Source: Planctomycetaceae bacterium
GTDB lineage: Bacteria; Planctomycetota; Planctomycetia; Pirellulales; Pirellulaceae
NCBI GenBank assembly: GCA_007694185.1
Contig: RECD01000270.1
Span: 1-64,000, forward strand
Reading direction: 5' to 3'
DNA: 64,000 nucleotides
Part shown: positions 42,705-56,736 of the stretch, piece by piece
How positions within the stretch are numbered: the stretch's first letter is position 1
Layout: every line of letters begins with the position of its first letter
Position numbers and translations under genes: made by a program
The notes under the pieces: model-generated
What the model saw: only the letters and a program-made list of their open reading frames with translations
Databases searched by the model: none
Told to the model about the DNA's origin: nothing

Positions 42705-45700
42705 TCAAGGGGGGGAGATGGTGCTGTTCGGTTCGCCTGCCAGTTCGATTTCTACCTGGTGCTCCTGGCGATCGTCTATCAGGGGAATCGTTTTGTCCGC
42801 TTGTTCGATGCCATCGACGGAAACCCGTTTCACCGACCGGCCCGGTGCCGGCTGCATGACGGTGATGTGATAGTAGGTTTCCCGGTAGCGGTAATGAATC
42901 TTGAACGTCGTCCAGTCGGCGGGTAGGCAAGGAGCGATTCGGAGCCGATCCGCTTCCAGGTGCAGGCCCAACAGCGATTCGGTAATCAGACGGTACATCC
43001 AACTGGCGGAGCCGGTGTACCAAGTCCAACCGCCGCGACCCGTATGGGGAGGAACGGCATAGACATCGGCCGCGACCACGTAGGGTTCGACTTTGTAAGT
43101 ATTCACCTGGCTTTGGGTAGCGGCGTGGTTGATCGGGTTGATCATCGCGAACAGTTCCCAGGCACGCTGATGGTCGCCGAGTTCCGCGAATGCCATGACG
43201 GTCCAGATGGCCGCGTGGGTGTATTGCCCCCCGTTTTCTCGCACGCCGGGGACGTAGCCCTTGATGTACCCAGGCTCCTGGTCCGACTTGTCAAACGGCG
43301 GATCGAAGAGCTGAATGAGCGAGCTGTTGTGGCGGACGAGCCGCTGGTACACGGCCTCCATCGCGCCGCGTGACCGCTGGACATCCCCGGCCCCGGACAG
43401 CACGGACCAGCTTTGCGCGATGGAGTCGATCTGGCATTCGGAGTTGCTCGCCGATCCGACCGGCTCGCCATTATCAAAGTAGGCGCGACGATACCACTGG
43501 CCGTCCCAGCCGTTATGCTCAATCTTCTCGCGAAGTTGGGCCGCTTGGGCGTCACAGCGGTCTGCGAAGGCCGCATCGTCGCGCGTGCGAGCAAGTGCCG
43601 AGAATTGCTTGAGGTTTTCGTACAGGAAGAAGGCCAACCAGACGCTTTCTCCCTTGCCGTGCTGGCCGATGAGATTCATCCCGTCGTTCCAGTCGCCGCA
43701 GCCGATCAGCGGCAGCCCATGAACGCCGAACTTGGAACCATGGGTGATGGCGCGGACGCAGTGTTCGTAAAGGGTTCCGGATTCCGTTGACGTATCCGGC
43801 AGGTCGTAGTACGCCTCTTCGTCCGGTTGGAGTTGGCGTCCTTCGAGGTAGGGGACTAGCTCGTCCAGAACGCCAGTATCTCCGGTCGCCATGACGTAGC
43901 GGCAGGTGATCAGCGGCAGCCAAAGGAGATCATCAGAAAAATGGGTGCGGACGCCGCGACCGAGTGGCGGATGCCACCAGTGTTGCACGTCACCTTCCCG
44001 AAATTGACGGCTGGCGCAACGCAGGAGGTGTTCGCGGATCAGTTGGGGCTCGGCATGCACGAGGGCCGCCACGTCCTGAAGTTGGTCTCGAAAACCGAAA
44101 GCGCCGCCGGACTGGTAGTAGCCGCTGCGCGCCCAGTATCGACAGGCGAGCGTCTGATACAGCAGCCAGCCGTTGGCCAAAACGTTGACACTCGGATCGG
44201 GTGTTTCTACGTGGACCGCTCCGAGCGTCCGGTTCCAGGATTCCCAAACTTCTTCCAGGGCGTGTCGTGAGGTCTCGACACCGCGGAACCGTTGGACCAG
44301 GTCTCGTACCTCCGCGACGTCGCGTCCGGCTCCGAGCATGAAAGTGATTTCACGTTCACGCCCATCGGCCAGGTCGAATGTCGTCTGCATGGCACCGCAG
44401 GGATCAAGCCCGGCGCCGACCTTACCCGACAGACGTGTGCGTCCCATTGCTGCCGGATTACCTGCGTCTCCGTTGCGGCCCAGGAATTCCGTCCGGTCAC
44501 CGGTGAGACTCCTGGAAGGGTCATTCACGTCCATGAAGGCGATGCGATCGGGGAATTCGATGCTGTAGGGGTTGCGGGCCAGCAGGGCTCCGCACTGCGC
44601 ATCGACTTCGGTGACGATATGCATCAGTCCTTTGCTTCGAAGTTCTCCCAGCACCCATTCGCAGCAGGCGGTCGCAGAAATTTTTCGGGGGCGTCCCGAG
44701 ACGTTCCGGACTTTGAGGACGGTGAATTTAACGGGAGCGTCGTTAGCGACATACACCCATAATTCCGATGTGATGCCGTTTTCGGTGTGTTCGAAGACGC
44801 TGTAGCCGAATCCGTGCCGACAAAGGTAGGGAGTACGGCCCCGCACCGGCAGCGGGGTGGGCGACCAAAATTCCCCGCTCTCTTCGTCGCGCAGGTAGAA
44901 GGCTTCCCCGCTGGCGTCGCTAACCGGGTCGTTGTACCAGGGGGTGAGGCGGAACTCGTGGGCATTCTCGCTCCAACTGTAGGCTCCGCCGCTTTCGGAG
45001 ATGACCGTTCCGAATCCGGAGTTGGCGATCACGTTCACCCACGGCGCCGGCGTCGTCCGTCCCGGTTCGGTCCGGATCATGTACTCGCGTCCGTCGGCCG
45101 TGAAGCCGCCCACGCCGTTTTCGAAGACCAGGTCCCCGTGAGGCTGTGCCTCGCCCTGGCTTGCGGCGATGCGGCGAGTACGGGGAACCAGTTCCGGAAC
45201 TCTCCGGTCCTGCGCGACTCGTCGGTCGAGTTGTTCGGCCAGCGTCCCTTGCGTATCGACGAGGATCACGCGGGCTACGGTTTGTAGGAGAATCTGGTCT
45301 TCGTCCGACGTCTGATCCGGCCGGCGGACAAAAATGCCGCCGGGATGATCGGCGGTTGAGACTTCCGTCCCGGCGGACACCAGACCGGCGATCAGGTCCT
45401 GCAGAACTTGCCGGTAGCCTTCCGCGCATTCATTCCAGATCACCAGGTCGACCCCCAACCCCTTGAGCCGCCAAAAGGCGTGCGCCTGGACGAGTTTGCG
45501 GACTAAATCGATGTTTTCGGCGTTGCCGATGCGGAGCAGGACGATCGGCAAGTCGCCGGAGATGCCGTGTCCCCATAGGCCGGACTGCCCGCGTCGGTTC
45601 TTCTTCAAGGTCCCCGCGTTTGCCCGCAGCGCGGCATTCGCGAATACGACGGGTCCGGCCAATCGTCCGAACAGTTGGGCGTCTGCTTCGCTGGCATTCA

Positions 45701-48700
45701 GTTGCCGCAGCACGACCTGCCCGTGAGTCCACGCCATATCAAACACCCGGTCAGCCAGGTGTCGATCGCGGTACTTGTCGATCATTTCCACGGCGGATTC
45801 ACGGGTCCTGGCCATGCCGGTGACATAATCCAGGCTGACGGTTTCGTCCGGCAAGAGCGTGACCTCCACACGAATCGCCACCATCGGATCGAGCACCGAG
45901 CCGGAGCTGTTCGAAAGGTTCCCCGCGAGGCTCATCGCTTCGGGGGTGGCCGTCGTGCGGCAGCGGCCTATGAACTTAGAGCGGTCGGTTTCGTAAGATG
46001 TCTCGCCGGTTTTCGCCCCGACGACGGCCATCAGGTGCAGCATCCAGGGGGGCTGTTCGTCTCGGGACCGCGGCCGACGCGTGCATAAGATGGCCTGCCG
46101 CGCATCGAGGATCTCGGTCTGGACGAACAAATTCGAGAACGCGGGGTGTGTGGCATCCGCGGCGGGCGTTGCCAGAACGACTTCGGCGTAGCTCGTCAGC
46201 TCGATCGTACGAGTGACGGTGGAATGATTCGTGATCGTGCTGCGACGGATCTCGATGTCGTCTTCCGGTGAGACGGCGATCTCGGTATGGATCGCGATAT
46301 CGTGGTCACGTCGCCGGTACTCGGCGCGCGCTTGAGAAAAGATCGCCTCGTACGACTGCGTCGGTCGGCGCGTCGGCTGATGCGTGGTCGACCAGACCTT
46401 GCCCAGTTTGGCGTCACGGACGTAACAGAACATTCCGGCGTTGTCACGCGTGGGATCCTCGCGCCAGCGGGTGACCGCGAGTCCCTTCCACGAACTCGAG
46501 CCACCTCCCGCATTGGTCACCATGACGTGGTAACGGCCGTTTGAGAGCAGGTGCACTTCGGGGGCAGGCGTGTGGGGCGTCTTGAAGATCCGTAGAAGGG
46601 CCACCGGTTCGCCGGCGTTCTGGCTTTCCCCGGTCACTTCGGACGAATGCGGGTAATACGGCGCTGCCTTAGGGATGCGTTCCTGCAACAACAGCTCGGT
46701 GGCCTGCAGTTGCGGGTCGGACTGAAACCGTTTTTGCATCGGTTTGTCCAACAGCAGGTAGGCCAGCGAAAGAAAGCTCATCCCCTGATGGTGTCCCATG
46801 TAGGATCGCACGACCGTGCTGCCCTGGCCACGCGTGATGCGTGTCCGCGTGTAGTCAACGGCTTCATAGAATCCATACTGCCCGGAGAACCCATGTTCGG
46901 TCATCCGCTGCAAATTGGCGCAAGCCTGTTCGGGAGCCACCATCAGCGCCATCGCCGTGGCATAGGGGGCGATCACGAGGTCATCCACCAGGCCACGTTT
47001 GAACCCCAATCCGGGAACACCGAAGGCGCGATACTGATAGTTAAGATCCGCATCGGTCAGGTTGTAGCCGGACTCCGAGATGCCCCAGGGGACGTCGCGT
47101 TGCCGCCCGTACTCGATGTGTCGGTCGACGACCGCGCCATACGTCTGATCGAGCAACGTGTGTTTGTAAGTCGGCATCACCAACAACGGCATCAGGTACT
47201 CGAACATCGAGCCACTCCACGACAGGAGTGCGGGCTGTCCGTGCGAGGTCGTCAGCAGTCGACCAAGCGCGAACCAGTGCTCTTGTTCCAACTGGCCCTG
47301 GGCGATCGCCACGAAACTGGCCAGGCGAGCCTCGGACGCCAGTAGGTCATAGAAGCTCGTGTCTCGTCGCCGTTCCGTGACGTTGTAGCCGATGGTCAGC
47401 AGTCGACGTGATGGGTCGTAAAGAAAGTCGTACTCGACCGTAGCCAGTTCACCACACTGCAGCGCGAGACGCTCGAGGGCGAGTAGTCGTTCCCGGACCC
47501 GCTGGCCGGCCTGGCTGATCAGCGTGCTCAGTTCCAGCATCCAGGATCGGGCCTGTTTCGATCCATGCTCGTCCGAGGAGAATTGGGCATCACGGTTGGT
47601 GGCGAGGGCGGGCAGATGGCGTTCCAGGTCGGCGATGTCTTGCAGCGTCGCGACTTCGTTCAGGGCGTCCAGGACGACTTGCAACTCGTCCTGCTGTTGA
47701 TCCTCGCGAAGGCCACTGTGGCAAAGCCCACCGGGAGCCGGCGGATGCCCAAGCCAGGGGGCCACGAACAACAGATCGGAACGATGATCACGACACTGAC
47801 GCTCCAACTCCCGCAGCCAGGTGATGACTTCCGGTTCCTCTTCCTGAGGCGGACCGATTGAGAACTCAGCCAAGGCCGCCAGCAGCTTCCCCAACCGATC
47901 TAGGGTGGCCAGGAGGTTGGTGGCGTCGGGACTTGTATCCGAGTCCGGGGGGAATGCATCCCAAAGCTTCCGAAATGTTGCCGAATCAAGGGCGGGCGAC
48001 CGCGTCTTCCGTTCGGCCCTCGCGGTCTGCACGAATTTTTTCGTCGCATCCTCCAACATCTGCCGCAACAGGCTCAGCGAGTTCCAGAGTTGCGGCGCGA
48101 TCAGCGGTTGTCGGGGGAGTTCCAGCAGCCCGGCTCGTAGCGTCAGCAGGTGGCCGATGAGATTCCCGCTGTCGACCGACGAGACGTAGCGAGGCAGCAG
48201 CGGTTCGAGAGTCCGCGTGTCGTACCAGTTCAGAAAATGCCCATGAAATCTTTCGAGTTGCTCGAGCGCGGAGAAGGTATTTCGAGTTCTTTCGATCAGT
48301 CGGGCCACGGAGATGTAGCCGAAATCGTATGCCGCCAGTGTCGACAGCAACGAGATGCCGACGTTCGTGGGCGACGTGCGGTGGGCAAGCGTGGCGACCG
48401 GTTCTTCCTGATAGTTGTCCGGCGGCAGCCAATGGTCTTCGGGTCCGATGAACCGTTCGAAAAACCGCCAGGTCTTTCGCGAGACCTGATGGAGAAAGAG
48501 GAGCTGATGCGGCGAAAGTTCCGCTTCCCTCGACCGGGCGGGCCAACTGATCCGCCACGCGATCAGCGGCGCCAGCAGCCATGCTAAGATGAGGGGCGTG
48601 GCGACCGGCAAGGCTTGCGGCTGGGTGATCACCAAGGCCATCGCGGTGAACACCGCCCAGACGGGGGCGATCCACATCGTCCGATACGCCCTCCCGAGCC

Positions 48701-51587
48701 CGCGATGGACTTCACGTTCGACATCGCTGGCGGTCTTCCATTCCAGCATCCGAGTGTGCGTCCACCGCATCCGGACGGCCGTCCGCGCGAAGGCGTCCAG
48801 GCTGACATAGGCCTCAAAGGGGAGTACGGCAATCGACAACGCAGCCTGAAGCAGGCTGTTCCCCAGCGACGCCGTGACTTCCCGTGAGTGTGCCCGCATC
48901 GGCACGTCGACGGCCTTGCGGAAGATGGAAAACAACGCGACGCAAACCGCGGGAATCAGTACGAGTCCCACCACGATCGCGGTCCACAACCAGGCGGGAG
49001 GCGACATCAGCCACCCCAATAGCAGCAGGAGCATCAGGACGCAGGGAATGGTGCTCCTGCGTAGATTGTCGAGAATCTTCCAGCGGGAAAGTAGGCTGAG
49101 CGGATTTCGCTCGAAGCGGCTGTTCGGTCCTGCAATGAACGGCAGCACCCAACCGGAGATCTGCCAGTCTCCCCGCATCCAGCGGTGTCGCCGGCTGACA
49201 TCGCCCAGGTATCCGGCGGGATGACTCTCAAAGACATGGACGTCATTCACCAGCCCGCAGCGGGCGTAGCAACCTTCGAGCAGATCGTGGCTGAGAATCT
49301 GATTCTCCAAAAAACGGTTCTCCGTTACGGCGGAGAATGCATCCACATCATAGATCCCCTTGCCGATAAACGAGCCTTGTCGGAACAAGTCCTGATACAC
49401 GTCCGAGGTCGCGCGGGTATAGGGATCGATGCCCGGTTCGCCGGAGTTCAGTCGGGCGAACCAGGATTGGCCCTCGAGTTCCAGGGTCGTCGCGACTCCG
49501 GGCTGAAGGATGCCGTATCCCTCCGTGACGATCCGGCGTTGTGCATCCACGTGGGGATGATTGAGCGGATGGGCGAGCGTGGCGACGAGTTGCCGAGCGG
49601 AATCGCGGGGCAACAGCGTATCCGTGTCCAGCGTGATGACGTATTTGACGGATGTGAGTACCGAGGTGTCTCCCACGATCAAAGAGAACGACTCATTCGC
49701 CTCTCCCCGGAGCAAGCGATTGAGGTCGCTCAATTTGCCTCGCTTGCGCTCTTGCCCCATCCAGGCTTGCTCTTGCGAGTTCCAGTGACGGGGGCGGTGG
49801 AACAGAAAGAAAGCGTCCGCTTTACCGTGGCTGTACTTTGCGTTCAGCGATTCGATTCCCGCCTGAGCCAGTCGCTGTAGCGATTCGTCCTCGGCGAGGT
49901 GCTCCTGGGACGCATCCCGGAAGTCGGTCAGCAGGCAGAATCGCAGTTGGTCATTCCTGTTGGCGAGGAACCGGACTTCGAGTCCCTCGAGTAACCGGCT
50001 GATGCTCTGCTCGTTGAGAAGCATCGTTGGGACCGCCACCAGGGTGTTGAACTCCGGGGGGATTCCGTGGGAGAAATCGAGTCGAGGCAGCCGATGCGGC
50101 GCTACCATCAACGTGACGAGCCAGTTGACGAGGCCAACGCTCAGGTGAGTGGCGCCGAGGAACAGGAGTCCTCCCAGTACCCAGGCCAGCCAGCCCGATG
50201 TAGCGACGAGGCTGAGTGCGCCCACGGTCACCCCCAGCGCGATGATCAAGATCGCGCCGAGATACACCGTCAGCGGCGCCTTCCGTAAACTGCCGCCAAT
50301 GCGATTCATGAGGGAAGGCCGCATCCGGCAAGCAAGTTCCAGTGCCGGCAACCCTTGATCGACTAGGAAATAGCCGACGTGCGCCCTTCGGACGTCTGCG
50401 GTTGATGATTCCTTACTGTGCGTCGCCAGTTGCACCGCTTGACGGGCGACTGCCTGTTCCGTTAGCGGGCTGCGTTTTGCGATGCGTTCGATGACATGCC
50501 GGTACTGGTCGCGGGTGCCGAAATCCATCTTGCCATGGACGCCCGCGGGATCGCGGAGGAGCGTCTGCTCGACGATGCTCAGCGATTCGACAAACGTCCG
50601 CCAGTCGATGGCATCCAGTTCTCGTAGACTGCCGATGCTGTTCCCGAATGAGACCTGATCCGCGGCTTGCTGCTGGGCCTCCGCCTGTACCAATTGCTCG
50701 ATTGTCCGTCCATCCTCCCAGAGTCGTTGTTCGATCCAAGTGAGCGGGATCGCCAATGCCGGGTTCTGGCCACTCAATCGACGCGTCATTTCCGCCACGA
50801 ACGCGCTGGAAAGCGAGGGCTCTTGCCTCGCCATGTCCGCCACTCCCAGGATCAACAGATTGGGAGTTTGCTCCGCGCATGCGATGAACTGATCAGCCCA
50901 CTTGCCGGCCTTATTCCGTTCGATCGTCCCCTTCGCGATCCGGGCCGCCACCCGTCGCAAATTCTCGATCAACGCTTGACGCAGCATGATCGGGATCGCC
51001 CACAGTTCCCCCAAGTTCAGTTGTGAGTTTAACTGATACGCGGCGATGTAGCTCCGAAGCGACTCGGCACCAACCCGACCATCGACATGAGAGATCAGTT
51101 CCAGTGCCAGATCGTAGACCCGCGGGTACCCCGCGGAGGGACCGTTTGCGAGTCGCGGTAGTCCCCGGCTGTATTGCTTCGGTAGGTGCCGGCGGGCCGT
51201 CCGAATCTGCCCTTCGATGACGTGGAAGTTGTCAAGCAGCCACTCCCCCGCGGGTGCGACAGGGCGGTGGTTTGCCACCACCTCCGTCACGATGCGGTTC
51301 GCATCCAGCAGCACCCTTTCGTTGTCGGCAAGACGGGTCAACAGACGGTCGGGGCCGGGACGTGGTTCGATCGCGTGCCATTCCGCGAGGGCTTCGGCGT
51401 GACGCTCCAATTGGTTCACGCTGAACACTTCCGAACGTAACGGTAAATCGTCTCCCAGCTCGCGGAATATTCCGTCGACGCCGACTCGGGACGCGAGACG
51501 TTCCCGTCCCTGGCGAATGGTCTTGCGTAAAAGTGTCAATCCGGTTCTCTCCTGGTCCATTTCAAATCTTCGCGCCGCAGCAGCCAT
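42705..51587 (-). CDS. cyclic beta-1,2-glucan synthase-like giant protein (GT84-GH94)
   Basis: A 2960-residue membrane protein with the NdvB/ChvB/Cgs architecture. The N-terminal domain of about 430 residues is followed by membrane helices at about 440-495, 850-890 and 990-1040. A processive glycosyltransferase lies between these, with VITLDTDTLLPRD near 650, LLEGCYARCG near 770 and RRHRWMRGDWQ further on. A glycoamylase-like region follows (YMGHHQGMSFLSLAYLL near 1600). Two GH94 N-terminal-type beta domains start near 1690 and 2190. Last is a GH94 phosphorylase-like barrel with GCGDWNDGMN near 2630. In alpha-proteobacteria such proteins make periplasmic cyclic glucans for osmoadaptation. An ATG at 51560 is an alternative start. 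Confidence 0.92.
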   Translation of the reverse strand: MAAAARRFEMDQERTGLTLLRKTIRQGRERLASRVGVDGIFRELGDDLPLRSEVFSVNQLERHAEALAEWHAIEPRPGPDRLLTRLADNERVLLDANRIVTEVVANHRPVAPAGEWLLDNFHVIEGQIRTARRHLPKQYSRGLPRLANGPSAGYPRVYDLALELISHVDGRVGAESLRSYIAAYQLNSQLNLGELWAIPIMLRQALIENLRRVAARIAKGTIERNKAGKWADQFIACAEQTPNLLILGVADMARQEPSLSSAFVAEMTRRLSGQNPALAIPLTWIEQRLWEDGRTIEQLVQAEAQQQAADQVSFGNSIGSLRELDAIDWRTFVESLSIVEQTLLRDPAGVHGKMDFGTRDQYRHVIERIAKRSPLTEQAVARQAVQLATHSKESSTADVRRAHVGYFLVDQGLPALELACRMRPSLMNRIGGSLRKAPLTVYLGAILIIALGVTVGALSLVATSGWLAWVLGGLLFLGATHLSVGLVNWLVTLMVAPHRLPRLDFSHGIPPEFNTLVAVPTMLLNEQSISRLLEGLEVRFLANRNDQLRFCLLTDFRDASQEHLAEDESLQRLAQAGIESLNAKYSHGKADAFFLFHRPRHWNSQEQAWMGQERKRGKLSDLNRLLRGEANESFSLIVGDTSVLTSVKYVITLDTDTLLPRDSARQLVATLAHPLNHPHVDAQRRIVTEGYGILQPGVATTLELEGQSWFARLNSGEPGIDPYTRATSDVYQDLFRQGSFIGKGIYDVDAFSAVTENRFLENQILSHDLLEGCYARCGLVNDVHVFESHPAGYLGDVSRRHRWMRGDWQISGWVLPFIAGPNSRFERNPLSLLSRWKILDNLRRSTIPCVLMLLLLLGWLMSPPAWLWTAIVVGLVLIPAVCVALFSIFRKAVDVPMRAHSREVTASLGNSLLQAALSIAVLPFEAYVSLDAFARTAVRMRWTHTRMLEWKTASDVEREVHRGLGRAYRTMWIAPVWAVFTAMALVITQPQALPVATPLILAWLLAPLIAWRISWPARSREAELSPHQLLFLHQVSRKTWRFFERFIGPEDHWLPPDNYQEEPVATLAHRTSPTNVGISLLSTLAAYDFGYISVARLIERTRNTFSALEQLERFHGHFLNWYDTRTLEPLLPRYVSSVDSGNLIGHLLTLRAGLLELPRQPLIAPQLWNSLSLLRQMLEDATKKFVQTARAERKTRSPALDSATFRKLWDAFPPDSDTSPDATNLLATLDRLGKLLAALAEFSIGPPQEEEPEVITWLRELERQCRDHRSDLLFVAPWLGHPPAPGGLCHSGLREDQQQDELQVVLDALNEVATLQDIADLERHLPALATNRDAQFSSDEHGSKQARSWMLELSTLISQAGQRVRERLLALERLALQCGELATVEYDFLYDPSRRLLTIGYNVTERRRDTSFYDLLASEARLASFVAIAQGQLEQEHWFALGRLLTTSHGQPALLSWSGSMFEYLMPLLVMPTYKHTLLDQTYGAVVDRHIEYGRQRDVPWGISESGYNLTDADLNYQYRAFGVPGLGFKRGLVDDLVIAPYATAMALMVAPEQACANLQRMTEHGFSGQYGFYEAVDYTRTRITRGQGSTVVRSYMGHHQGMSFLSLAYLLLDKPMQKRFQSDPQLQATELLLQERIPKAAPYYPHSSEVTGESQNAGEPVALLRIFKTPHTPAPEVHLLSNGRYHVMVTNAGGGSSSWKGLAVTRWREDPTRDNAGMFCYVRDAKLGKVWSTTHQPTRRPTQSYEAIFSQARAEYRRRDHDIAIHTEIAVSPEDDIEIRRSTITNHSTVTRTIELTSYAEVVLATPAADATHPAFSNLFVQTEILDARQAILCTRRPRSRDEQPPWMLHLMAVVGAKTGETSYETDRSKFIGRCRTTATPEAMSLAGNLSNSSGSVLDPMVAIRVEVTLLPDETVSLDYVTGMARTRESAVEMIDKYRDRHLADRVFDMAWTHGQVVLRQLNASEADAQLFGRLAGPVVFANAALRANAGTLKKNRRGQSGLWGHGISGDLPIVLLRIGNAENIDLVRKLVQAHAFWRLKGLGVDLVIWNECAEGYRQVLQDLIAGLVSAGTEVSTADHPGGIFVRRPDQTSDEDQILLQTVARVILVDTQGTLAEQLDRRVAQDRRVPELVPRTRRIAASQGEAQPHGDLVFENGVGGFTADGREYMIRTEPGRTTPAPWVNVIANSGFGTVISESGGAYSWSENAHEFRLTPWYNDPVSDASGEAFYLRDEESGEFWSPTPLPVRGRTPYLCRHGFGYSVFEHTENGITSELWVYVANDAPVKFTVLKVRNVSGRPRKISATACCEWVLGELRSKGLMHIVTEVDAQCGALLARNPYSIEFPDRIAFMDVNDPSRSLTGDRTEFLGRNGDAGNPAAMGRTRLSGKVGAGLDPCGAMQTTFDLADGREREITFMLGAGRDVAEVRDLVQRFRGVETSRHALEEVWESWNRTLGAVHVETPDPSVNVLANGWLLYQTLACRYWARSGYYQSGGAFGFRDQLQDVAALVHAEPQLIREHLLRCASRQFREGDVQHWWHPPLGRGVRTHFSDDLLWLPLITCRYVMATGDTGVLDELVPYLEGRQLQPDEEAYYDLPDTSTESGTLYEHCVRAITHGSKFGVHGLPLIGCGDWNDGMNLIGQHGKGESVWLAFFLYENLKQFSALARTRDDAAFADRCDAQAAQLREKIEHNGWDGQWYRRAYFDNGEPVGSASNSECQIDSIAQSWSVLSGAGDVQRSRGAMEAVYQRLVRHNSSLIQLFDPPFDKSDQEPGYIKGYVPGVRENGGQYTHAAIWTVMAFAELGDHQRAWELFAMINPINHAATQSQVNTYKVEPYVVAADVYAVPPHTGRGGWTWYTGSASWMYRLITESLLGLHLEADRLRIAPCLPADWTTFKIHYRYRETYYHITVMQPAPGRSVKRVSVDGIEQADKTIPLIDDRQEHQVEIELAGEPNSTISPP

Positions 51588-51692: not shown

Positions 51693-51845
51693 TCAAATTC
51701 GTCCCATCAGCAACAGGATGATCAAAATCAGCACGATCAGCCCCAAGCCGCCACTCGGGCCATAGCCCCAGTTGCGGCTATGGTTCCAACGGGGAATGGC
51801 TCCCAACAAGAGCAGGATCAGAATCACAAGCACGATGGTGGACAT
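51693..51845 (-). CDS. DUF3309-family small membrane protein
   Basis: A 50-residue protein below the usual length cutoff. It reads MSTIVLVILILLLLGAIPRW, then NHSRNWGYGPSGGLG and a second hydrophobic helix ending LLLMGRI. This is the complete DUF3309 pattern: two helices around an aromatic, Gly-rich centre. Function is unknown; it is a probable inner-membrane peptide. It lies about 100 bp upstream of the glucan synthase start, on the same strand, and may share its transcript. Confidence 0.85.
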   Translation of the reverse strand: MSTIVLVILILLLLGAIPRWNHSRNWGYGPSGGLGLIVLILIILLLMGRI

Positions 51846-51929
51846 AAATCGGTTCGTCAGTTTGGGTTTTGCATGGTGTCAGGTAAACGCATGGGCGAGT
51901 CAGGCTAGCGCCAGTTAGCAATGAGCGGC

Positions 51930-52003
51930 AAAAAAGTGTCCGGCACCTTTTGTGCAAAGCACCCGAAGGGCGAGTTCCTCGCAAAAGGTTCCGGACACTT
52001 TTT
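51930..52003. repeat. cloverleaf-forming inverted repeat (REP-like)
   Basis: The outer arms AAAAAGTGTCCGG (51931-51943) and CCGGACACTTTTT pair over 13 bp. After one mismatch, 7 more base pairs form (ACCTTTT with AAAAGGT). Inside lie three short hairpins in series: GTGC-AAA-GCAC, CC-GAA-GG and GCGAG-TTC-CTCGC. The whole can fold as a four-way cloverleaf on either strand. It sits downstream of the 88-residue membrane protein gene and could also act as its terminator, since T runs end both strands. Confidence 0.85.
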
Positions 52004-52016
52004 CACCGCACGATCC

Positions 52017-52283
52017 TTAGTCGTTTTTTCGCTTCACGTTGTCGTCCGGGGTTTCGGGAGACGATGCCTCCTCTTCACCGCTCACCAGTTCGCGGGCCTT
52101 CGACTCTACCGTTTTGGCGTCGTCTCTTGCCTTGTCCGGGTCGACCGTCAATTGGACCTCCACTTGGTTGCTGTCGTCGCCCGCGTCCCGGCTTGCCAGC
52201 ACGAACCAGCCTCGGTAGAAGCCGAACCCGATGACGCATATCGCCAGCAAGATCAACAAATTGAATAGTGGCATCCTTCTCAT
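52017..52283 (-). CDS. small single-helix membrane protein
   Basis: An 88-residue protein: one transmembrane helix (FNLLILLAICVIGFGFYRGW) near the N-terminus, then a charged tail. The tail opens with a beta-like segment, NQVEVQLTVDPDKARDDAK, and ends in an acidic and then a basic stretch. No family is recognised, though planctomycetes have proteins of this shape. GAGAG lies 6 nt before the ATG. It belongs to a series of small same-strand genes. Confidence 0.7.
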   Translation of the reverse strand: MRRMPLFNLLILLAICVIGFGFYRGWFVLASRDAGDDSNQVEVQLTVDPDKARDDAKTVESKARELVSGEEEASSPETPDDNVKRKND

Positions 52284-52432
52284 GATTGTCTCTCAAATCT
52301 CTTCTAAAATTGAAACTAACAACTTGTGACGGTCGCGCGGGGGCCCAGTCGCCACCGGTTGTCAACGCTATCGTCGCCTGCCCTTTCGATCGCTCATGCG
52401 AAGCGATCTGGGAGCGGACAATGTCAGGCGGG

Positions 52433-52855
52433 TCAGTTCCTTCCGTACCTGTAGGGGATGTGGTGCCGCGACGCGTTGCTGTGGCGTGACGACCCAAAGG
52501 TTCGGAACTGCGGGGAATAGCCGCCCCGGTAGTAAGTGCCTTGCCTGAAGTAGGTCGCCGACGGGTAGACGTAGGTTCCCTGCTGTTTATAGCCATACGG
52601 CCCCTGCTCGTATCCGTTGTAGCCGCCGGTTCCTCGGTACCCACTGAATTCGCGGAATCGGTCGGTCCGCGTACCTCGGTTATCGGTTCGGTATCCGGTA
52701 TCGAAGCTTTGACTGTAGGGGCTGTAGTGGCCTTGAGTGATCTCACCACGCGGTAGGGTTACCTGAGCCGCAGATTGATTCGAGGGCATCAATACCAGGC
52801 AAAATGTCGCGGCGGTGAAACCTGCGGAGGCTTTGGTGCAAAATGTATATTTCAT
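52433..52855 (-). CDS. secreted Gly/Tyr-rich protein
   Basis: A 140-residue protein with a signal peptide (MKYTFCTKASAGFTAATFCL, cleaved near SAAQ). The mature part is very rich in Tyr, Gly, Arg and Ser, with short irregular repeats such as GYRGTGGYNGYEQGPYGY and FRQGTYYRGGY. It is low complexity and probably disordered or surface-associated. The ATG at 52855 has AAGGA 7 nt upstream, and that site lies within a 14-bp palindrome. No function is assigned. Confidence 0.75.
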   Translation of the reverse strand: MKYTFCTKASAGFTAATFCLVLMPSNQSAAQVTLPRGEITQGHYSPYSQSFDTGYRTDNRGTRTDRFREFSGYRGTGGYNGYEQGPYGYKQQGTYVYPSATYFRQGTYYRGGYSPQFRTFGSSRHSNASRHHIPYRYGRN

Positions 52856-52863
52856 GGTCTGTC

Positions 52864-52877
52864 CTTGTCTGGACAAG
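52864..52877. promoter_or_regulatory. palindrome over a ribosome binding site
   Basis: CTTGTC-TG-GACAAG is a perfect 6-bp inverted repeat that includes part of the AAGGAC ribosome binding site of the Gly/Tyr-rich gene. It could be an operator or a hairpin that hides the ribosome binding site. Confidence 0.35.
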
Positions 52878-53071
52878 TTTTAATTGAACGTAAATAGGGT
52901 CCCGCCAGCGCGATCGGCAAAAGGGATGCTTGGGCATCCGTTCGGATGCACGATGCCCCCGCCGCCTCTCATTGGCTTGAGATTGAGATTTCATTTGTCT
53001 CGGCCGACGTATTGCCGAACCGGGTTAGCGATCCGTCATGAAACCGTTCGGCAAGCGGCGATACCCAGTGC

Positions 53072-53371
53072 CTATCGTCGCGATCTCAAGTCCACCACTT
53101 TTCTGGAGCAGGCGTATCGGTACCCCCAATCGGCAGCATCGCTCCGAGGAGCCCGACGACCCAACCGCATCGGTTGTCGCGGGCCAGAGAAAAATGCTCG
53201 ACGGACGGCCTCGGACCACGGAGTACAGGTTTCCCCAATCAGGGCGTTGACGACTCCCATCAGAGCCGTCATCGCCAGACTGAGGTATTGCCAGCCAGGA
53301 ACCAGAGTCCTAACGCATCGCCCGGCGCTCAATCCGCACACGACCCGCGACGTGACGCTGCCGATACTCAT
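53072..53371 (-). CDS. hypothetical small protein with one hydrophobic segment
   Basis: A 99-residue ORF starting at 53371 with AAGGA 9 nt upstream. A central hydrophobic stretch, WQYLSLAMTALMGVVNALIG, is followed by a Cys (ETCTP) and a basic tail. The arrangement faintly recalls DUF2892-type membrane proteins, but the match is not good enough to name it. It fits between same-strand genes in the small-protein island. Confidence 0.45.
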   Translation of the reverse strand: MSIGSVTSRVVCGLSAGRCVRTLVPGWQYLSLAMTALMGVVNALIGETCTPWSEAVRRAFFSGPRQPMRLGRRAPRSDAADWGYRYACSRKVVDLRSRR

Positions 53372-53405
53372 CGTCTGGTTCCTTGTTGAGGAAATTCCTG
53401 TCCCA

Positions 53406-53909
53406 TTACTGTTGGGACACGGTGAACTGGATCTCTTCTGAGAAATCAGCACCGCTGCTGGCCGTTTTGCCGGTCACCTTGGCCGTGAAATCGCCCAAGG
53501 ACGCGTCGGCGGTTGCCTTGAGTAACAGATCCACACCCATGCTGCCTGGCGTGATGGCGGGGTCTTTCGTGTCTACCGTGACCCCGTTTGGCAGGCCGGA
53601 GATCTCGATATTCACCTGTTCCTCGAAGTTTTCACCACGATTGATCCCGATTCGCACCGGGGCTTCTCCGCCCTGAGTCAGCGCGATGGGCTCGAACGGG
53701 ACGCTCAAGGCGAACGTCTGATCCGCCTCGCCTGCGACCGGCTTGTCCGCTACCGGCTTGTCTGCGACCGATGTCTCAGCTCCGGACGGCGTCCTGGCTG
53801 TGGTCGGATCCGCAGCGGTGTTTCCGTCCTTGGTCGAATCTCCGCAACCCGACGCGGCGACCATCGTAAGCATGCCCATGCACATGCTCATGAAATACAT
53901 CTTCATCAT
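53406..53909 (-). CDS. small lipoprotein with a beta-sandwich-like domain
   Basis: A 167-residue protein whose signal ends in the lipobox MVAASGC, so a lipid anchor is predicted. A Thr/Ala-rich linker follows, with an imperfect internal repeat (VADKPVADKPVAGEA). The C-terminal domain of about 100 residues is beta-rich (ALSVPFEPIALTQGGEAPVR and ISGLPNGVTVDTKDPAITPG), similar in style to Ig-like or pre-peptidase domains of secreted planctomycete proteins. Its function is unknown. Confidence 0.75.
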   Translation of the reverse strand: MMKMYFMSMCMGMLTMVAASGCGDSTKDGNTAADPTTARTPSGAETSVADKPVADKPVAGEADQTFALSVPFEPIALTQGGEAPVRIGINRGENFEEQVNIEISGLPNGVTVDTKDPAITPGSMGVDLLLKATADASLGDFTAKVTGKTASSGADFSEEIQFTVSQQ

Positions 53910-54055
53910 ACTTCTCCATTTGATCGAATTGTGGAACCGTCTCCCCTCGCAACATGCGAGTCCGACAAGTCTCCACGTGATTGGTTGTTAGGTCTTCACA
54001 CGGACCGCAGGCGTCCACCGTCGGTTGCACTTGACCGCCCGGCTTGGGGCTTGTG

Positions 54056-54229
54056 TCAGATGCGTCCTCGGCCCATGCGTCCCCCCATGAAGAAGGACAG
54101 GATTGCTAAGATCAAGAACACGACGAACAGGATTTTGGCGATTCCCACGAAGGAACCGGCGATTCCCCCAAATCCCAAGACGGCGGCGATCAACGCGATC
54201 ACCAAGCAAGTGATGGCTAGATTTAACAT
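54056..54229 (-). CDS. DUF1328 (YtjA) family membrane protein
   Basis: A 57-residue protein below normal length cutoffs. It reads [20 protein letters not shown], then [20 protein letters not shown] and a C-terminus with MGGRMGRGR. This matches the DUF1328/YtjA pattern of two transmembrane helices. GGAG lies 8 nt before the ATG. E. coli YtjA is likewise a tiny membrane protein of unknown function. Confidence 0.9.
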
Positions 54230-54303
54230 GATTTACTCCAACATTCGGTCAGGGTGACTACCCGATCGGCGACGTGCCGTTCGCGGCTTTTCTCTAAAAA
54301 CTC

Positions 54304-54561
54304 TTATATTTCGGACGGTCGACGCTGGGGCGGCCAGTCCGGCAATACCCTGGTAGCACTCCGAGCGACAGGTCCCGCAGTCAGGACACCGATCGCGAAA
54401 CCGATCACCAGGGTTCCACACAACAACGCCGCGTTGGGCATCGTCAACGTTAGGAATAACAGTTTCGTTTCGACAGGCCGCGTGTTCTGCAGGATCACGA
54501 TCACAACCAGCAACACGACGACGGAAATTCCTATGACTTTTAACTTGTATAAATTTCCCAT
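54304..54561 (-). CDS. LapA-domain (DUF1049) membrane protein
   Basis: An 85-residue protein with two transmembrane helices: VIGISVVVLLVVIVILQNTR and LLCGTLVIGFAIGVLTAGPV. The first ends in the LapA-family signature QNTRPVETKLLF. E. coli LapA (YciS) takes part with LapB in controlling LpxC and lipopolysaccharide synthesis, but small LapA-like proteins are broadly distributed and the role here is open. Its ATG overlaps the stop of a possible upstream 62-residue ORF (TAATG). Confidence 0.85.
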   Translation of the reverse strand: MGNLYKLKVIGISVVVLLVVIVILQNTRPVETKLLFLTLTMPNAALLCGTLVIGFAIGVLTAGPVARSATRVLPDWPPQRRPSEI

Positions 54562-54749
54562 TACTCTGGGTTTCTCCAGATCGCGTGCCGCGTTCCGGTC
54601 TTAAGCTGGCTGACGATGTTCGTGCCTTCGTTGCCGCCCGACTGGTTCGTGTGACAGGGGCCGCTCGCCGTGGGCAGCGGGGCCCCGCCCCGGGGCGGGG
54701 TGCGATGGTCGTCGGATCTCCGCGTGGTCTTGAGTCGCTTTTTCATGAG
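54561..54749 (-). CDS. possible small hydrophilic protein upstream of lapA
   Basis: An ORF of about 62 residues (starts MKKRLKTTRRSDDHRTPPRG) with no known family. Its stop codon overlaps the LapA start as TAATG, which suggests translational coupling. Against it, the ribosome binding site is weak and the sequence contains a GC-rich palindrome. Low confidence. Confidence 0.3.
   Translation of the reverse strand, partial: LMKKRLKTTRRSDDHRTPPRGGAPLPTASGPCHTNQSGGNEGTNIVSQLKTGTRHAIWRNPE
54683..54700. repeat. 18-bp perfect GC palindrome
   Basis: CCCCGCCCC immediately followed by GGGGCGGGG, with no loop. It is self-complementary over 18 bp and made only of G and C. It lies between the DUF2294 and LapA genes. 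Confidence 0.85.
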
Positions 54750-54977
54750 CCGTTCCGGGTGAGCATTGATCGATTCGGGAGGTACCCTGTCGGCCCGGTT
54801 GCGATCATCGCGCCGCGGTTCGGGTCCGACGGACTGGCCAAATTTTCGGGCGAGTGCGGGAGCAGGTTCGCATCGGTTTGGGACGAGACCGGCGTTTCCT
54901 GAGGCGATCGATTCTGAGCTGAATTCTGGCATGATTCCGATTTCTTGAGTCGACTTTGGTAAGCGTGATTTTCGGGT

Positions 54978-55406
54978 CTACCCGGCGTTGTCGGCTGGCT
55001 TGTCTGGAGCCCCGTCCCAGACTTCCGCTGACAGGCCACCGGCCATTTGAAAGACTTGAACCATCGTTCCGGTCGTGAAGACCTGCACGACGGCGCCGGT
55101 CGATGGCTCGATCTCCGCTGTCGCTTCGTGGACTGCGATCCCGGTGATTCGTTCGATCTCCTCTCGCAACGGCGCGAGGGAGTTTTGAAACAGTTCGCGG
55201 TGAAACTCCCGTACCTGGGTGGCACCCTTGGGAGTCCGAAACAGCGCCTTCTCGGCTGGGGTCAGTGCTCCGTTCAACGTGACGACCAAGGTGTCTTCGC
55301 TGAGGACCACCGTCACGGATTCGGGGGCATGTCCGGTGCGCTGCTGTTGAAAGTCGCGAACCGCACGGGCTACCTGCTCCGCCATCGTCAACCGAGAATC
55401 GTTCAT
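54978..55406 (-). CDS. DUF2294-family protein (copy 1)
   Basis: A 142-residue protein of the DUF2294 family. It has an N-terminal helix with AVRDFQQQRTGHAPESVTVV, the strand pair SEDTLVVTLNGALTPAEKAL, a central REFHRELFQNSLAPLREEIE helix and a C-terminal beta region with GAVVQVFTTGTMVQVF. There is no signal peptide or membrane segment. A paralogue of similar layout is encoded divergently at 55795. The leader region holds an intrinsic terminator (55463-55510). The biochemical role of the family is not established. Confidence 0.88.
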   Translation of the reverse strand: MNDSRLTMAEQVARAVRDFQQQRTGHAPESVTVVLSEDTLVVTLNGALTPAEKALFRTPKGATQVREFHRELFQNSLAPLREEIERITGIAVHEATAEIEPSTGAVVQVFTTGTMVQVFQMAGGLSAEVWDGAPDKPADNAG

Positions 55407-55462
55407 TCAATTCATCTCCATCCTGTGTGCCGTAGCGGCCAGAGGGTTGGCGACATGGCACG

Positions 55463-55510
55463 AAAAAAGCCGACGTGGCGGAATTCCCGAAGGTTTTCCG
55501 TCACGCCGGC
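55463..55510 (-). terminator. intrinsic terminator in the leader of DUF2294 copy 1
   Basis: Read on the minus strand, the arm GCCGGCGTGACGGAA (55510-55496), a 12-nt loop and TTCCGCCACGTCGGC form a 15-position stem with 13 Watson-Crick pairs, followed directly by TTTTTT (55468-55463). This is a textbook intrinsic terminator. It lies 57 bp upstream of the copy 1 start on the same strand, so it is an attenuator or the end of an upstream small RNA. Confidence 0.75.
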
Positions 55511-55756
55511 TTACTGTTTAACTCGCCTCCCGAACAGAATCGGGATGCGTTTTATCTAGTCATCCGAACGGGTGGGCACTGCAGCAGTTATTGAAACAGG
55601 TCTCACCACGACTGTTGTCATTAATCGTCGTGTTGGCTCCCAGAGTCAATGGGCTCCACCACATTTTCCGTAAATGATTTGTTTTAAATCGCCCAGGGCC
55701 GAGGCGGCAGTGACTTTCCCTGTCGATCAAGTACAACAAGACCATAGACAGTTCCG

Positions 55757-55775
55757 CGTGTACACGCCGTACACG
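55757..55775. promoter_or_regulatory. operator-like inverted repeat before DUF2294 copy 2
   Basis: CGTGTAC (55757-55763) and GTACACG (55769-55775) are perfect 7-bp arms around a 5-bp spacer. The repeat lies 19 bp before the ATG of copy 2 and ahead of its GGGAGGG ribosome binding site. The size and spacing fit a dimeric repressor operator. Confidence 0.5.
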
Positions 55776-55794
55776 GGGACTATGGGAGGGCGTC

Positions 55795-56175
55795 ATGAAG
55801 TCGCGTGGAGAAGTCGAAGCCGCCATTTGCGAGGGGATCGCTCGTTTCGAACAGGAGTACATGGGGCGTGGTCCCAAGCACATTCATGCCCACGTGATCG
55901 GCGACCTGATCGTGGTTCGGCTGCAAGGGGTGCTGACCGCTGCGGAACAGCAACTCGTGAAGACACTCCCTCCCGAGAAAGGACGTGATTTGTTGAAACA
56001 GGTTCGAACGCAGTTGATCGAAACGGCCAGGCCGGTCCTCGAAGCCCTGGTTCTGAAAGCCAGCGGGGCGATCGTGGTCAGCTTGCATCACGACATCAGC
56101 GTGATCACAGGCGAGGAGATCATTCTCTTCACCCTATCGGAAACGTCGCAGTTCCGAGAAACGCGAAAGCGGTAG
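55795..56175 (+). CDS. DUF2294-family protein (copy 2)
   Basis: A 126-residue DUF2294-type protein: RFEQEYMGRGPKHIHAHVIG, then DLIVVRLQGVLTAAEQQLVK, the helical KGRDLLKQVRTQLIETARPV and a C-terminal beta region with GAIVVSLHHDISVITGEEII. It matches the layout of copy 1 but is clearly diverged in sequence. It is transcribed away from copy 1, and GGAGG lies 6 nt before the ATG. A 19-bp palindrome just upstream suggests regulation. Confidence 0.85.
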   Translation: MKSRGEVEAAICEGIARFEQEYMGRGPKHIHAHVIGDLIVVRLQGVLTAAEQQLVKTLPPEKGRDLLKQVRTQLIETARPVLEALVLKASGAIVVSLHHDISVITGEEIILFTLSETSQFRETRKR

Positions 56176-56484: not shown

Positions 56485-56661
56485 ACCGAGTCGAGGAGAG
56501 GTATTCACACAGATGTGGCTGACTCCGAGGCATGCGCGGGTCTGAATTTACAAAACGGTATGTACCGTTTTGGCTTCCGGAAAAACGCCGCACTGCCGAC
56601 CACCGGCAGGTAACCACAACTCCTGTTTCGGCTATAAAAAAATTGCCACTTTCGTGGCCAG

Positions 56662-56736
56662 TCGGGGTGACAGGATTCGAACCTGCGACCTTTTGACCCC
56701 CAGTCAAACGCGCTATCCAGGCTGCGCCACACCCCG
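56662..56736 (-). tRNA. tRNA-Pro (anticodon GGG)
   Basis: On the minus strand the acceptor stem CGGGGTG pairs with CACCCCG. The D stem is GCGC/GCGC. The anticodon arm is TTTGA-CTGGGGG-TCAAA with GGG at positions 34-36, reading proline CCC codons. The T arm GCAGG-TTCGAAT-CCTGT contains the invariant TTCGA. The discriminator base is A, and CCA is not encoded. A plain single tRNA with no intron. Confidence 0.95.

Follow-up and report, generated by a model that had tools for sequence, protein, structure and literature searches.

What gathers so many very small genes beside a giant glucan synthase gene in this planctomycete, and could they share a control? An earlier note on the window (the whole 64,000-nucleotide stretch of Planctomycetaceae DNA analysed here) had described eight short genes within about 4.5 kb, mostly on the minus strand, with an 8.9-kb glucan synthase gene downstream, and had read them as a shared envelope or osmotic-stress module. 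We found every one of the eight ORFs at 51.7-56.2 kb where the note had placed it, seven of them on the minus strand, and the synthase gene lies downstream as described (Table 1). Two elements that the note lacked, a decayed yeaQ gene and a structured RNA, were also recognised.

Table 1. Features of the small-gene island and its flanks, in window positions
Feature	Position	Strand	Basis or remark
NdvB-type cyclic beta-glucan synthase, 2960 aa	42705..51587	-	Pfam domains; PDB match 8rf0
DUF3309 small membrane protein	51693..51845	-	PF11752, E 2e-23
REP-like palindrome	51931..52006		178 sites in same genome
p88, 88-aa single-TM (single-helix) protein, undescribed family	52017..52283	-	No family; homologues in relatives
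Gly/Tyr-rich secreted protein	52433..52876	-	ORF call; no family
Decayed YeaQ/GlsB (transglycosylase-associated) gene	53072..53452	-	Frameshifted
Lipoprotein	53406..53909	-	No Pfam or NCBIfam family; homologues in relatives
DUF1328 small membrane protein	54056..54229	-	E 1e-14
LapA-like small membrane protein	54304..54561	-	E 6e-6, 26.5 bits (cut-off 28)
mpsC-B (DUF2294/PF10057 paralogue B, 142 aa)	54978..55406	-	E 2e-24; first gene behind RNA
Structured RNA, 115-position model R1	55458..55572	-	109.5 bits; proposed mpsC-B leader
Terminator hairpin + U-tract within RNA	55462..55513 (approximate)	-	Fold and covariation
Candidate promoter TTGACT-N18-ATTAAT	55620..55649	-	-10 element starts 59 nt upstream of RNA core
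mpsC-A (DUF2294/PF10057 paralogue A, 126 aa)	55795..56175	+	E 3e-34; divergent from RNA and mpsC-B

The family assignments of the small genes held to different degrees. Both proposed DUF2294 copies match PF10057, named MpsC in current Pfam, well above its curated cut-off (86.6 and 117.9 bits against 23). The LapA call stood as an ORF, and its PF06305 score stays below the cut-off. Neither the LapA-like nor the Gly/Tyr-rich ORF had a tblastn match in the relatives' loci; the former obtained no support from relatives, and for the latter an ORF at the corresponding place of a Roseimaritima MAG (locus L085) was recognised by eye only. The N-terminal half of the decayed YeaQ is readable (57% identical to the intact YeaQ of L085 over 46 residues), its C-terminal half lies, as judged by eye, in a second frame, and intact copies are present in relatives. 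The window's copy of the island is partly decayed, with yeaQ broken.

The synthase contains two GH94 supersandwich domains, a GH94 catalytic domain and a glucoamylase-like domain, together with a weak GT match (23.2 bits, under the 27-bit Pfam cut-off). Its best PDB match is the NdvB cyclic beta-(1,2)-glucan synthase 8rf0, with residues 1317-2926 as the best stretch. If the sub-cut-off GT match is accepted, GT, GH94 supersandwich and GH94 catalytic domains are united in one chain of ~2900 aa, as in NdvB-type enzymes. The enzyme is like NdvB in its GH94 domains and by its top PDB match, and it differs in its planctomycete host and in the sub-cut-off score of its GT domain. The synthase was found in only 10 of 40 relatives.

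Both island MpsC proteins belong to the same Pfam family as MpsC of the S. aureus MpsABC system; in contrast to that system, no mpsA or mpsB (dabB/dabA) was recognised among the 20 window proteins in or near the island that were scanned with Pfam. Elsewhere, MpsC has as neighbours DabA and an antiporter-type subunit (L013) or an antiporter-type subunit (L010). A good fold model of MpsC-A (pLDDT 90) resembled no PDB fold at E 0.001 or better, its sequence had no PDB match at E 0.1, and the model suggested no function.

The structured RNA ends 51 nt upstream of mpsC-B, the first minus-strand gene. It consists of a 5' UCGGAUGACUA block, an imperfect stem domain of ~60 nt and a long terminator hairpin followed by its U-tract, the hairpin and U-tract being its most stable part; the fold z-score of 55458-55571 is -3.8. 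The 5' block has a sharp edge, and nine of its ten positions are more than 90% conserved in the 138 copies in which it could be placed. Among 150 aligned copies, which were fitted to the model and are therefore biased toward the structure, double changes affect 31 of the 36 pairs, including 15 of the 16 pairs in helices 1-3 of the 5' domain; the 501 double-change cells compare with 111.6 in shuffles, none of 500 of which reached 501, and with no more than 105 when the structure was slid. An alignment of 23 copies built by MAFFT without the model gave double changes in 26 of the 36 pairs. The RNA has a conserved structured domain backed by covariation, as do transcription-terminating riboswitches.

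Model R1 found a single sense match in the whole genome (109.5 bits, E 1.4e-25); a second match in the list, of 35.9 bits, is this hairpin's own antisense image. A dispersed repeat was rejected as the nature of the RNA, given this one sense match versus the 178 sites of the REP-like palindrome nearby. Rfam scans at gathering thresholds returned only tRNA-Pro in the window and no family in seven loci with RNA copies; scans by E-value yielded a single miRNA match, on the opposite strand of 55380-55680, and ten matches to the copy in L017, all below cut-off. Across the scanned window and copies, the RNA reaches the gathering score of no Rfam 15 family. Its newness refers to Rfam rather than to an alignment with the Rhodopirellula-1 motif, which is presented as a candidate cis-regulatory RNA of Planctomycetes and Proteobacteria (Weinberg 2010, PMC2864571) and shares with it the character of a candidate cis-regulatory RNA in planctomycetes.

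Matches to the RNA were obtained in 100 of 397 genomes and 63 of 186 sampled genera of the source's class, with nine candidates scored per genome, so that copies were probably missed. In the 397 genomes, whose lists were transcribed by hand, the RNA and MpsC occur together in 78, the RNA alone in 22, MpsC alone in 48 and neither in 249 (Fisher p 2e-29, a value that is too small because the genomes are related).

The position of the RNA was examined in 79 loci of other genomes selected by MpsC-B (the best 80 of 92 matches, reduced to distinct loci, some of them G-genome records). The RNA lies on the same strand and at most 1.2 kb upstream of 71 of the 79 mpsC-B genes, and in 45 of these the gap is 52 nt or less, which would leave no room for a separate mpsC-B promoter; these counts use the best 150 of 192 RNA hits (125 after dropping overlaps with a better match on the other strand), omit tblastn pieces shorter than 80 residues and extrapolate the mpsC-B starts. 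Of the remaining eight loci, six carry a copy farther upstream; copies occur only downstream in L111 and only on the opposite strand in L162. For 68 distinct mpsC-B cases, the gene call next upstream is oriented away from the RNA in 42 and in the same direction in 22, and is missing in 4, so in most cases the RNA is not another gene's terminator; the gene calls in relatives are script-made and include doubtful small ORFs.

A second sample was chosen by the RNA itself, from 60 high-scoring regions at the top of the match list, excluding the window and the places in G007, G025, G036 and G037. mpsC-B follows the RNA in 20 of its 64 rows, or 19 of 62 distinct copies (the duplicate pair L205/L219 falls in this class), with gaps of 36-91 nt. 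Other copies precede DUF3309, YeaQ, response-regulator, sigma-factor, CsbD or CsrA genes; from the remaining 44 rows, 37 proteins were submitted to Pfam, one protein that occurred twice being omitted along with six rows whose score was low or that had no gene, and the families behind the RNA are those listed, 25 of 54 and 25 of 35, in two Pfam listings. The place before related genes is observed; from this position we propose that the RNA is a leader.

Promoter-like sites peak 50-80 nt upstream of the RNA, above resampled sequence (p 3e-32; 136 copies with a placeable 5' block and 200 nt upstream), and the candidate promoter of the window falls inside this peak. A stricter consensus scan detected no promoter in the window.

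An invariant CCG can pair either with the invariant CGG at the 5' side, forming a basal helix (UCGG with CCGA), or with the terminator. When folded as nascent RNA, 148 of 150 copies formed the basal helix, compared with 15.2 of 150 when the 5' tail was shuffled, and as full-length RNA 148 of 150 adopted the terminator form. Because the basal helix is nearly invariant, covariation can lend it no support, and pairing at the flanking positions 5:96 and 6:95 was not in excess of shuffles. Established parts of the model that follows are the RNA with its covarying pairs, its location ahead of the gene, the co-occurrence with MpsC and, by computed folding, the competing pairings. A promoter about 60 nt upstream would start a transcript through the conserved RNA, whose 5' domain would be closed by the short basal helix. 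As long as this helix is held, the terminator would be blocked and RNA polymerase would read into mpsC-B, and possibly on through the same-strand genes as far as the glucan synthase; otherwise CCG would join the long hairpin and transcription would stop at the U-tract. A stress signal may stabilise the ON form, and the island genes would then act together. We consider it probable that this is a general-stress cluster whose first minus-strand gene, mpsC-B, is controlled by a cis-acting RNA switch; the terminator would presumably act conditionally in vivo. Whether a single transcript reaches the synthase is uncertain because gaps of 74-530 nt separate the island genes.

The element resembles transcription-terminating riboswitches and attenuator leaders in being structured, in having copies before functionally related genes and in a basal helix that, by computed folding, could compete with an intrinsic terminator; it differs from them in having no Rfam match, a broad stress gene set and a distribution mainly in one planctomycete class. 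We therefore entertain, tentatively and at somewhat less than even odds, an undescribed riboswitch class of Planctomycetota that senses a general stress signal, such as a second messenger, and switches on a stress regulon of mpsC-B, DUF3309, YeaQ, CsbD, CsrA, Hsp20, desaturase, kinase, response-regulator and sigma-factor genes, some genomes having nine or more copies. Alternatively, a protein rather than a small molecule could hold the anti-terminator form. The best candidate would be CsrA, since csrA matches occur in 27 of the 79 mpsC-B loci at a median distance of 437 nt (26 on the same strand), the RNA stands upstream of csrA in L005, L162 and L196, and the conserved 5' block of many copies includes GGAUG, which resembles a CsrA site. 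CsrA sites are typically located in loops, however, whereas the GG is base-paired in the folded nascent RNA, and no csrA was recognised in the island of the window; we regard this attenuator as rather unlikely.

Control in cis was also weighed against a small RNA acting in trans, which would stop at its own terminator and merely lie beside mpsC-B, the downstream genes having their own promoters. Such an RNA would suit the tandem copies in L002 (9684-9789 and 9805-9918), those copies that over 150 nt separate from the gene that follows, and an element with its own promoter-like sequence and strong terminator; but a leader, unlike a free RNA, should keep a constant distance to the start codon, and the short gaps in 45 of the 71 cases would leave no second promoter room, which makes this reading clearly unlikely. 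A plain strong terminator insulating the divergent mpsC-A from mpsC-B, with an incidental 5' domain, would agree with the stability of the hairpin and U-tract, but it is highly improbable, since the 5' domain covaries by itself, its block is conserved up to a sharp edge and the U-tract lies on the mpsC-B side.

Conservation of the neighbourhood in relatives, which the earlier note had set beforehand as a check, was largely borne out. Six of the eight small ORFs (all except the Gly/Tyr-rich and LapA-like ones) have tblastn matches in relatives' loci, and L085 contains five of these six in island order, its piece ending short of mpsC-A. Near mpsC-B, the 79 loci contained matches to CsrA in 27 (26 on the same strand), DUF3309 in 24 (23), the lipoprotein in 19 (19), DUF1328 in 14 (14), p88 in 13 (12), YeaQ in 7 (7), SPFH in 7 (7), the glucan synthase in 5 (5) and CsbD in 4 (4), at a tblastn threshold of E 1e-4 with short hydrophobic seeds, by which tiny families may be missed or cross-matched. 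MpsC-A matches, which include cross-matches to mpsC-B, were found in 63 loci, 47 on the opposite strand and 16 on the same. A chance gathering of independent stress genes without shared control would fit the gaps between the genes, the absence of each recurring family from most of the 79 loci and the fact that many of the 40 relatives also carry DUF1328, YeaQ and CsbD apart from MpsC; it is nevertheless quite improbable, as the neighbours recur with near-complete strand agreement and in much the same order in L085. The cluster of tiny genes is genuine: a planctomycete island of stress genes that is conserved in part.

The proposal of a shared module is therefore supported as to stress by recurrence, strand agreement and the order in L085, in spite of the loose association; an envelope or osmotic character forms no part of that support. 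The word stress is supported by the genes behind the RNA and by a table of sigma-S-controlled small proteins of Salmonella (PMC5437024), which includes YmgE (transglycosylase motif), YjbJ (CsbD) and YtjA (DUF1328), from the families of YeaQ, CsbD and DUF1328. Unlike these Salmonella genes, the planctomycete island is headed by a structured RNA and adjoins an NdvB-type synthase. An RNA placed before many genes of unassigned function gives direct access to stress control in planctomycetes: a single molecule can be tested with cell extracts, metabolites and proteins, and it supplies a list of genes for work on DUF3309, DUF1328 and MpsC. If the cis-acting switch is real, MpsC, whose deletion is stated in PMC6689103 to leave growth of S. 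aureus unaffected, would belong to a regulated stress response.

Control of the island by sigma-54 was considered and rejected, as the window genes score low (at best 8.4, for the LapA-like gene, the 90th percentile of 634 upstream regions; the others at most 7.4). In relatives, strong TGGCAC-N5-TTGC sites do stand before genes for DUF1328, DUF3309 and p88-like proteins at other loci.

The eight short genes that the earlier note had placed between 51.7 and 56.2 kb of the window were confirmed there. All but the second DUF2294 copy, which is a plus-strand gene, lie on the minus strand (seven of eight), in line with its description of nearly all of them as minus-strand genes. The 8.9-kb glucan synthase gene reported downstream encodes, according to its domains and best solved relative, an NdvB-type cyclic beta-glucan synthase. 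Pfam now names DUF2294 MpsC, and the two copies, mpsC-A (126 aa) and mpsC-B (142 aa), are distinct paralogues arranged as a divergent pair; mpsC-B matches the A-type genes of relatives at ~26-31% over ~100 residues. The island also contains a broken YeaQ/GlsB gene. Over 46 residues its first half is 57% identical to the intact YeaQ of L085, a locus of a Roseimaritima MAG, and its second half lies, by eye, in a different frame; a PF04226 search of the window's genome gave no match. The 88-aa protein p88, a small protein with a single TM segment that had no match in Pfam and NCBIfam scans, recurs beside DUF3309 and mpsC-B and was also present in L001, L012, L085 and L099. A tRNA-Pro gene (anticodon GGG) adjoins the island, and the 20-base arm of a REP-like inverted repeat occurs at 178 sites of the window's genome (≤3 mismatches; reversed control pattern, 0).

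Coordinates of the features in the window and in loci of other genomes
Feature	Sequence	Position	Strand
NdvB-type glucan synthase gene	window	42705-51587	minus
REP-like inverted repeat	window	51931-52006	
p88 gene	window	52017-52283	
Broken YeaQ/GlsB gene	window	between lipoprotein and Gly/Tyr-rich genes	minus
mpsC-B	window	54978-55406	minus
Structured RNA	window	55458-55572	minus
mpsC-A	window	55795-56175	plus
tRNA-Pro gene	window	56661-56736	
Tandem RNA copies before one gene	L002	9684-9789; 9805-9918	
Tandem RNA copies before one gene	L086	872-987; 1089-1204	
RNA copy with mpsC-B	L115	185-300	
DabA and antiporter-type region	L013	4357-9141	
Antiporter-type region	L010	74-2409	

The part of real interest in the island is a structured RNA before mpsC-B. 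It emerged as a shared hairpin from the comparison of upstream regions, and a search with the hairpin pattern found it before genes that were labelled by eye as mpsC-B, YeaQ, DUF1328, lipoprotein, csrA, glycosyltransferase and CsbD-like. An alignment of 23 copies folds into a 5' domain followed by a long terminator hairpin with a U-tract, with compensatory changes in 26 of 36 pairs. Among 147 distinct copies, standard pairs made up 93.5% of the pair cells (shuffled, 83.6%), double changes were seen at 31 of the 36 pairs, and double-change cells numbered 501, against 111.6 in shuffled and at most 105 in slid structures, figures that are favoured by the fitting of the alignment to the model. The only terminator pairs without a second standard pair were those of CCG:CGG (columns 92-94 with 171-173), and the 5' block, of the type UCGGNUGAC, was nearly invariant in 138 copies, its conservation ending abruptly on the upstream side. 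A simple reading is that CCG pairs with two alternative partners. In computed folding, RNA cut before the 3' half of the terminator formed the 5' helix in 148 of 150 cases, a figure that shuffling of the 5' tail lowered to 15.2 of 150, and the full-length RNA formed the terminator in 148 of 150; these predictions agree with a two-partner CCG. No covariation support was found for the 5' helix.

When named genomes were queried with MpsC-B, the best 80 of 92 matches comprised 79 distinct loci. The RNA was on the same strand and ≤1.2 kb upstream of mpsC-B in 71 of these 79, and in 45 of the 71 it lay ≤52 nt before the extrapolated start; the other eight had a copy farther upstream (6), downstream only (1) or on the other strand only (1). 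The nearest upstream gene call, in 68 distinct mpsC-B cases, was divergent in 42, on the same strand in 22 and absent in 4. Ahead of 136 copies, promoter-like sequences outscored resampled sequence, with a peak 50-80 nt before the RNA core; the window has a candidate promoter, TTGACT-N18-ATTAAT, at -59, and a stricter consensus scan of the window reported none. Because of its position before mpsC-B, the orientation of the upstream genes and the promoter-like peak, we propose the RNA as a probable leader of the attenuator type, an already known kind of element.

A covariance model of the RNA matched the window's genome once in sense orientation. Among 40 relatives, the window's own genome included, 15 matched at E ≤0.001, and 13 of these held 34 copies above 60 bits; MpsC was present in 12 of these 13 and in 13 of the 40. 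The exceptions were G019, with the RNA and without MpsC, and G034, with the reverse, whose MpsC adjoins a SulP transporter and a carbonic anhydrase. Within the class, 100 of 397 genomes matched the RNA (both RNA and MpsC, 78; RNA only, 22; MpsC only, 48; neither, 249), as did 9 of 294 genomes sampled across the phylum, two of them belonging to the class and three being weak matches. Tandem copies precede one gene in L002 and L086. L115, with an RNA copy and mpsC-B, comes from a MAG whose label, Candidatus Sumerlaeia, belongs to a different phylum, which points to either transfer or a binning error.

The earlier note had also proposed a shared envelope or osmotic-stress module, which is partly supported: the island families recur in relatives, nearly always on the strand of mpsC-B, but the genes associated with the RNA form a general-stress and regulation list that is not specifically envelope or osmotic. 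When 60 regions were sampled by the RNA instead of by MpsC, they gave 64 rows with 62 distinct copies; the next gene was mpsC-B in 20 of 64 rows (19 of 62 distinct) and mpsC-A in none. Pfam scans of 37 other proteins in this sample, with 25 of 35 families listed, gave DUF3309 (6), YeaQ-type (4), response regulator (3), KaiC-like ATPase, P-type ATPase and ECF sigma domain (2 each), and CsrA, CsbD, acetate kinase, ArsD, PilZ and FtsX (1 each). A second set, 54 non-mpsC-B genes ≤300 nt from copies in MpsC-chosen and earlier loci (25 of 54 families listed), gave response regulators (4), CsbD and YeaQ-type (3 each), ice-binding, desaturase, histidine kinase, CsrA and DUF1328 (2 each), and Hsp20, DUF3309, acetate kinase, KaiC, SufB and others (1 each). 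PMC5437024 tabulates small Salmonella proteins under sigma-S, among them YmgE (YeaQ family), YjbJ (CsbD family) and YtjA (DUF1328 family). Sigma-54-type sites (TGGCAC-N5-TTGC) lie ~75-150 nt before DUF1328, DUF3309 and p88-like genes at other loci (upstream of DUF1328 in L018, L019, L022, L026, L028, L030, L031, L033 and others), some of them, by eye, near NtrC-like regulators; such sites would give these families another mode of control.

As for the neighbourhood, DUF1328 was present in 24 of the 40 relatives, CsbD in 22, YeaQ in 20, DUF3309 in 11 and the synthase in 10. The divergent mpsC-A/mpsC-B pair also occurs in G007, G011, G023 and G025, with variants in G031 and G038. At the 79 mpsC-B loci (best 80 of 92 matches), the neighbours were CsrA (27), DUF3309 (24), lipoprotein (19), DUF1328 (14), p88 (13), YeaQ (7), SPFH (7), synthase (5) and CsbD (4), and 117 of these 120 shared the strand of mpsC-B (26, 23, 19, 14, 12, 7, 7, 5 and 4, respectively). 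L085 runs in a single direction through mpsC-B, csrA, SPFH, DUF502, DUF1328, lipoprotein, YeaQ, LTXXQ-like, Gly/Tyr-rich, p88, DUF3309 and synthase fragments (LTXXQ-like and Gly/Tyr-rich assigned by eye). The window keeps the common genes in the same order, without csrA, SPFH, DUF502 and an LTXXQ-like gene; its YeaQ is broken, and it carries a LapA-like ORF. One contig of the sister genome G002 (L020/L054) carries the RNA, DUF1328, DUF3309 and the synthase in order, and L087 the RNA, mpsC-B and the synthase. The synthase also occurs in other settings: in G003 and G039 the gene calls made in this analysis placed no island gene beside it.

The RNA is, Rhodopirellula-1 apart, undescribed in the sense that the copies tested matched no Rfam 15 family at cut-off and literature searches returned none: a full-text search with the letters of the conserved block found no paper, and the passages searched in the surveys PMC11109978 and PMC8632094 contain none of the planctomycete names looked for. 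The Rhodopirellula-1 motif appears in a single table line of PMC2864571, which gives it no Rfam number. MpsC of S. aureus is, according to PMC6689103 and PMC8552792, not a functional part of mpsAB, and the former describes MpsC outside staphylococci as not collocated with mpsAB. The MpsC neighbours in L013 (DabA and antiporter-type) and L010 (antiporter-type) speak against the latter statement.
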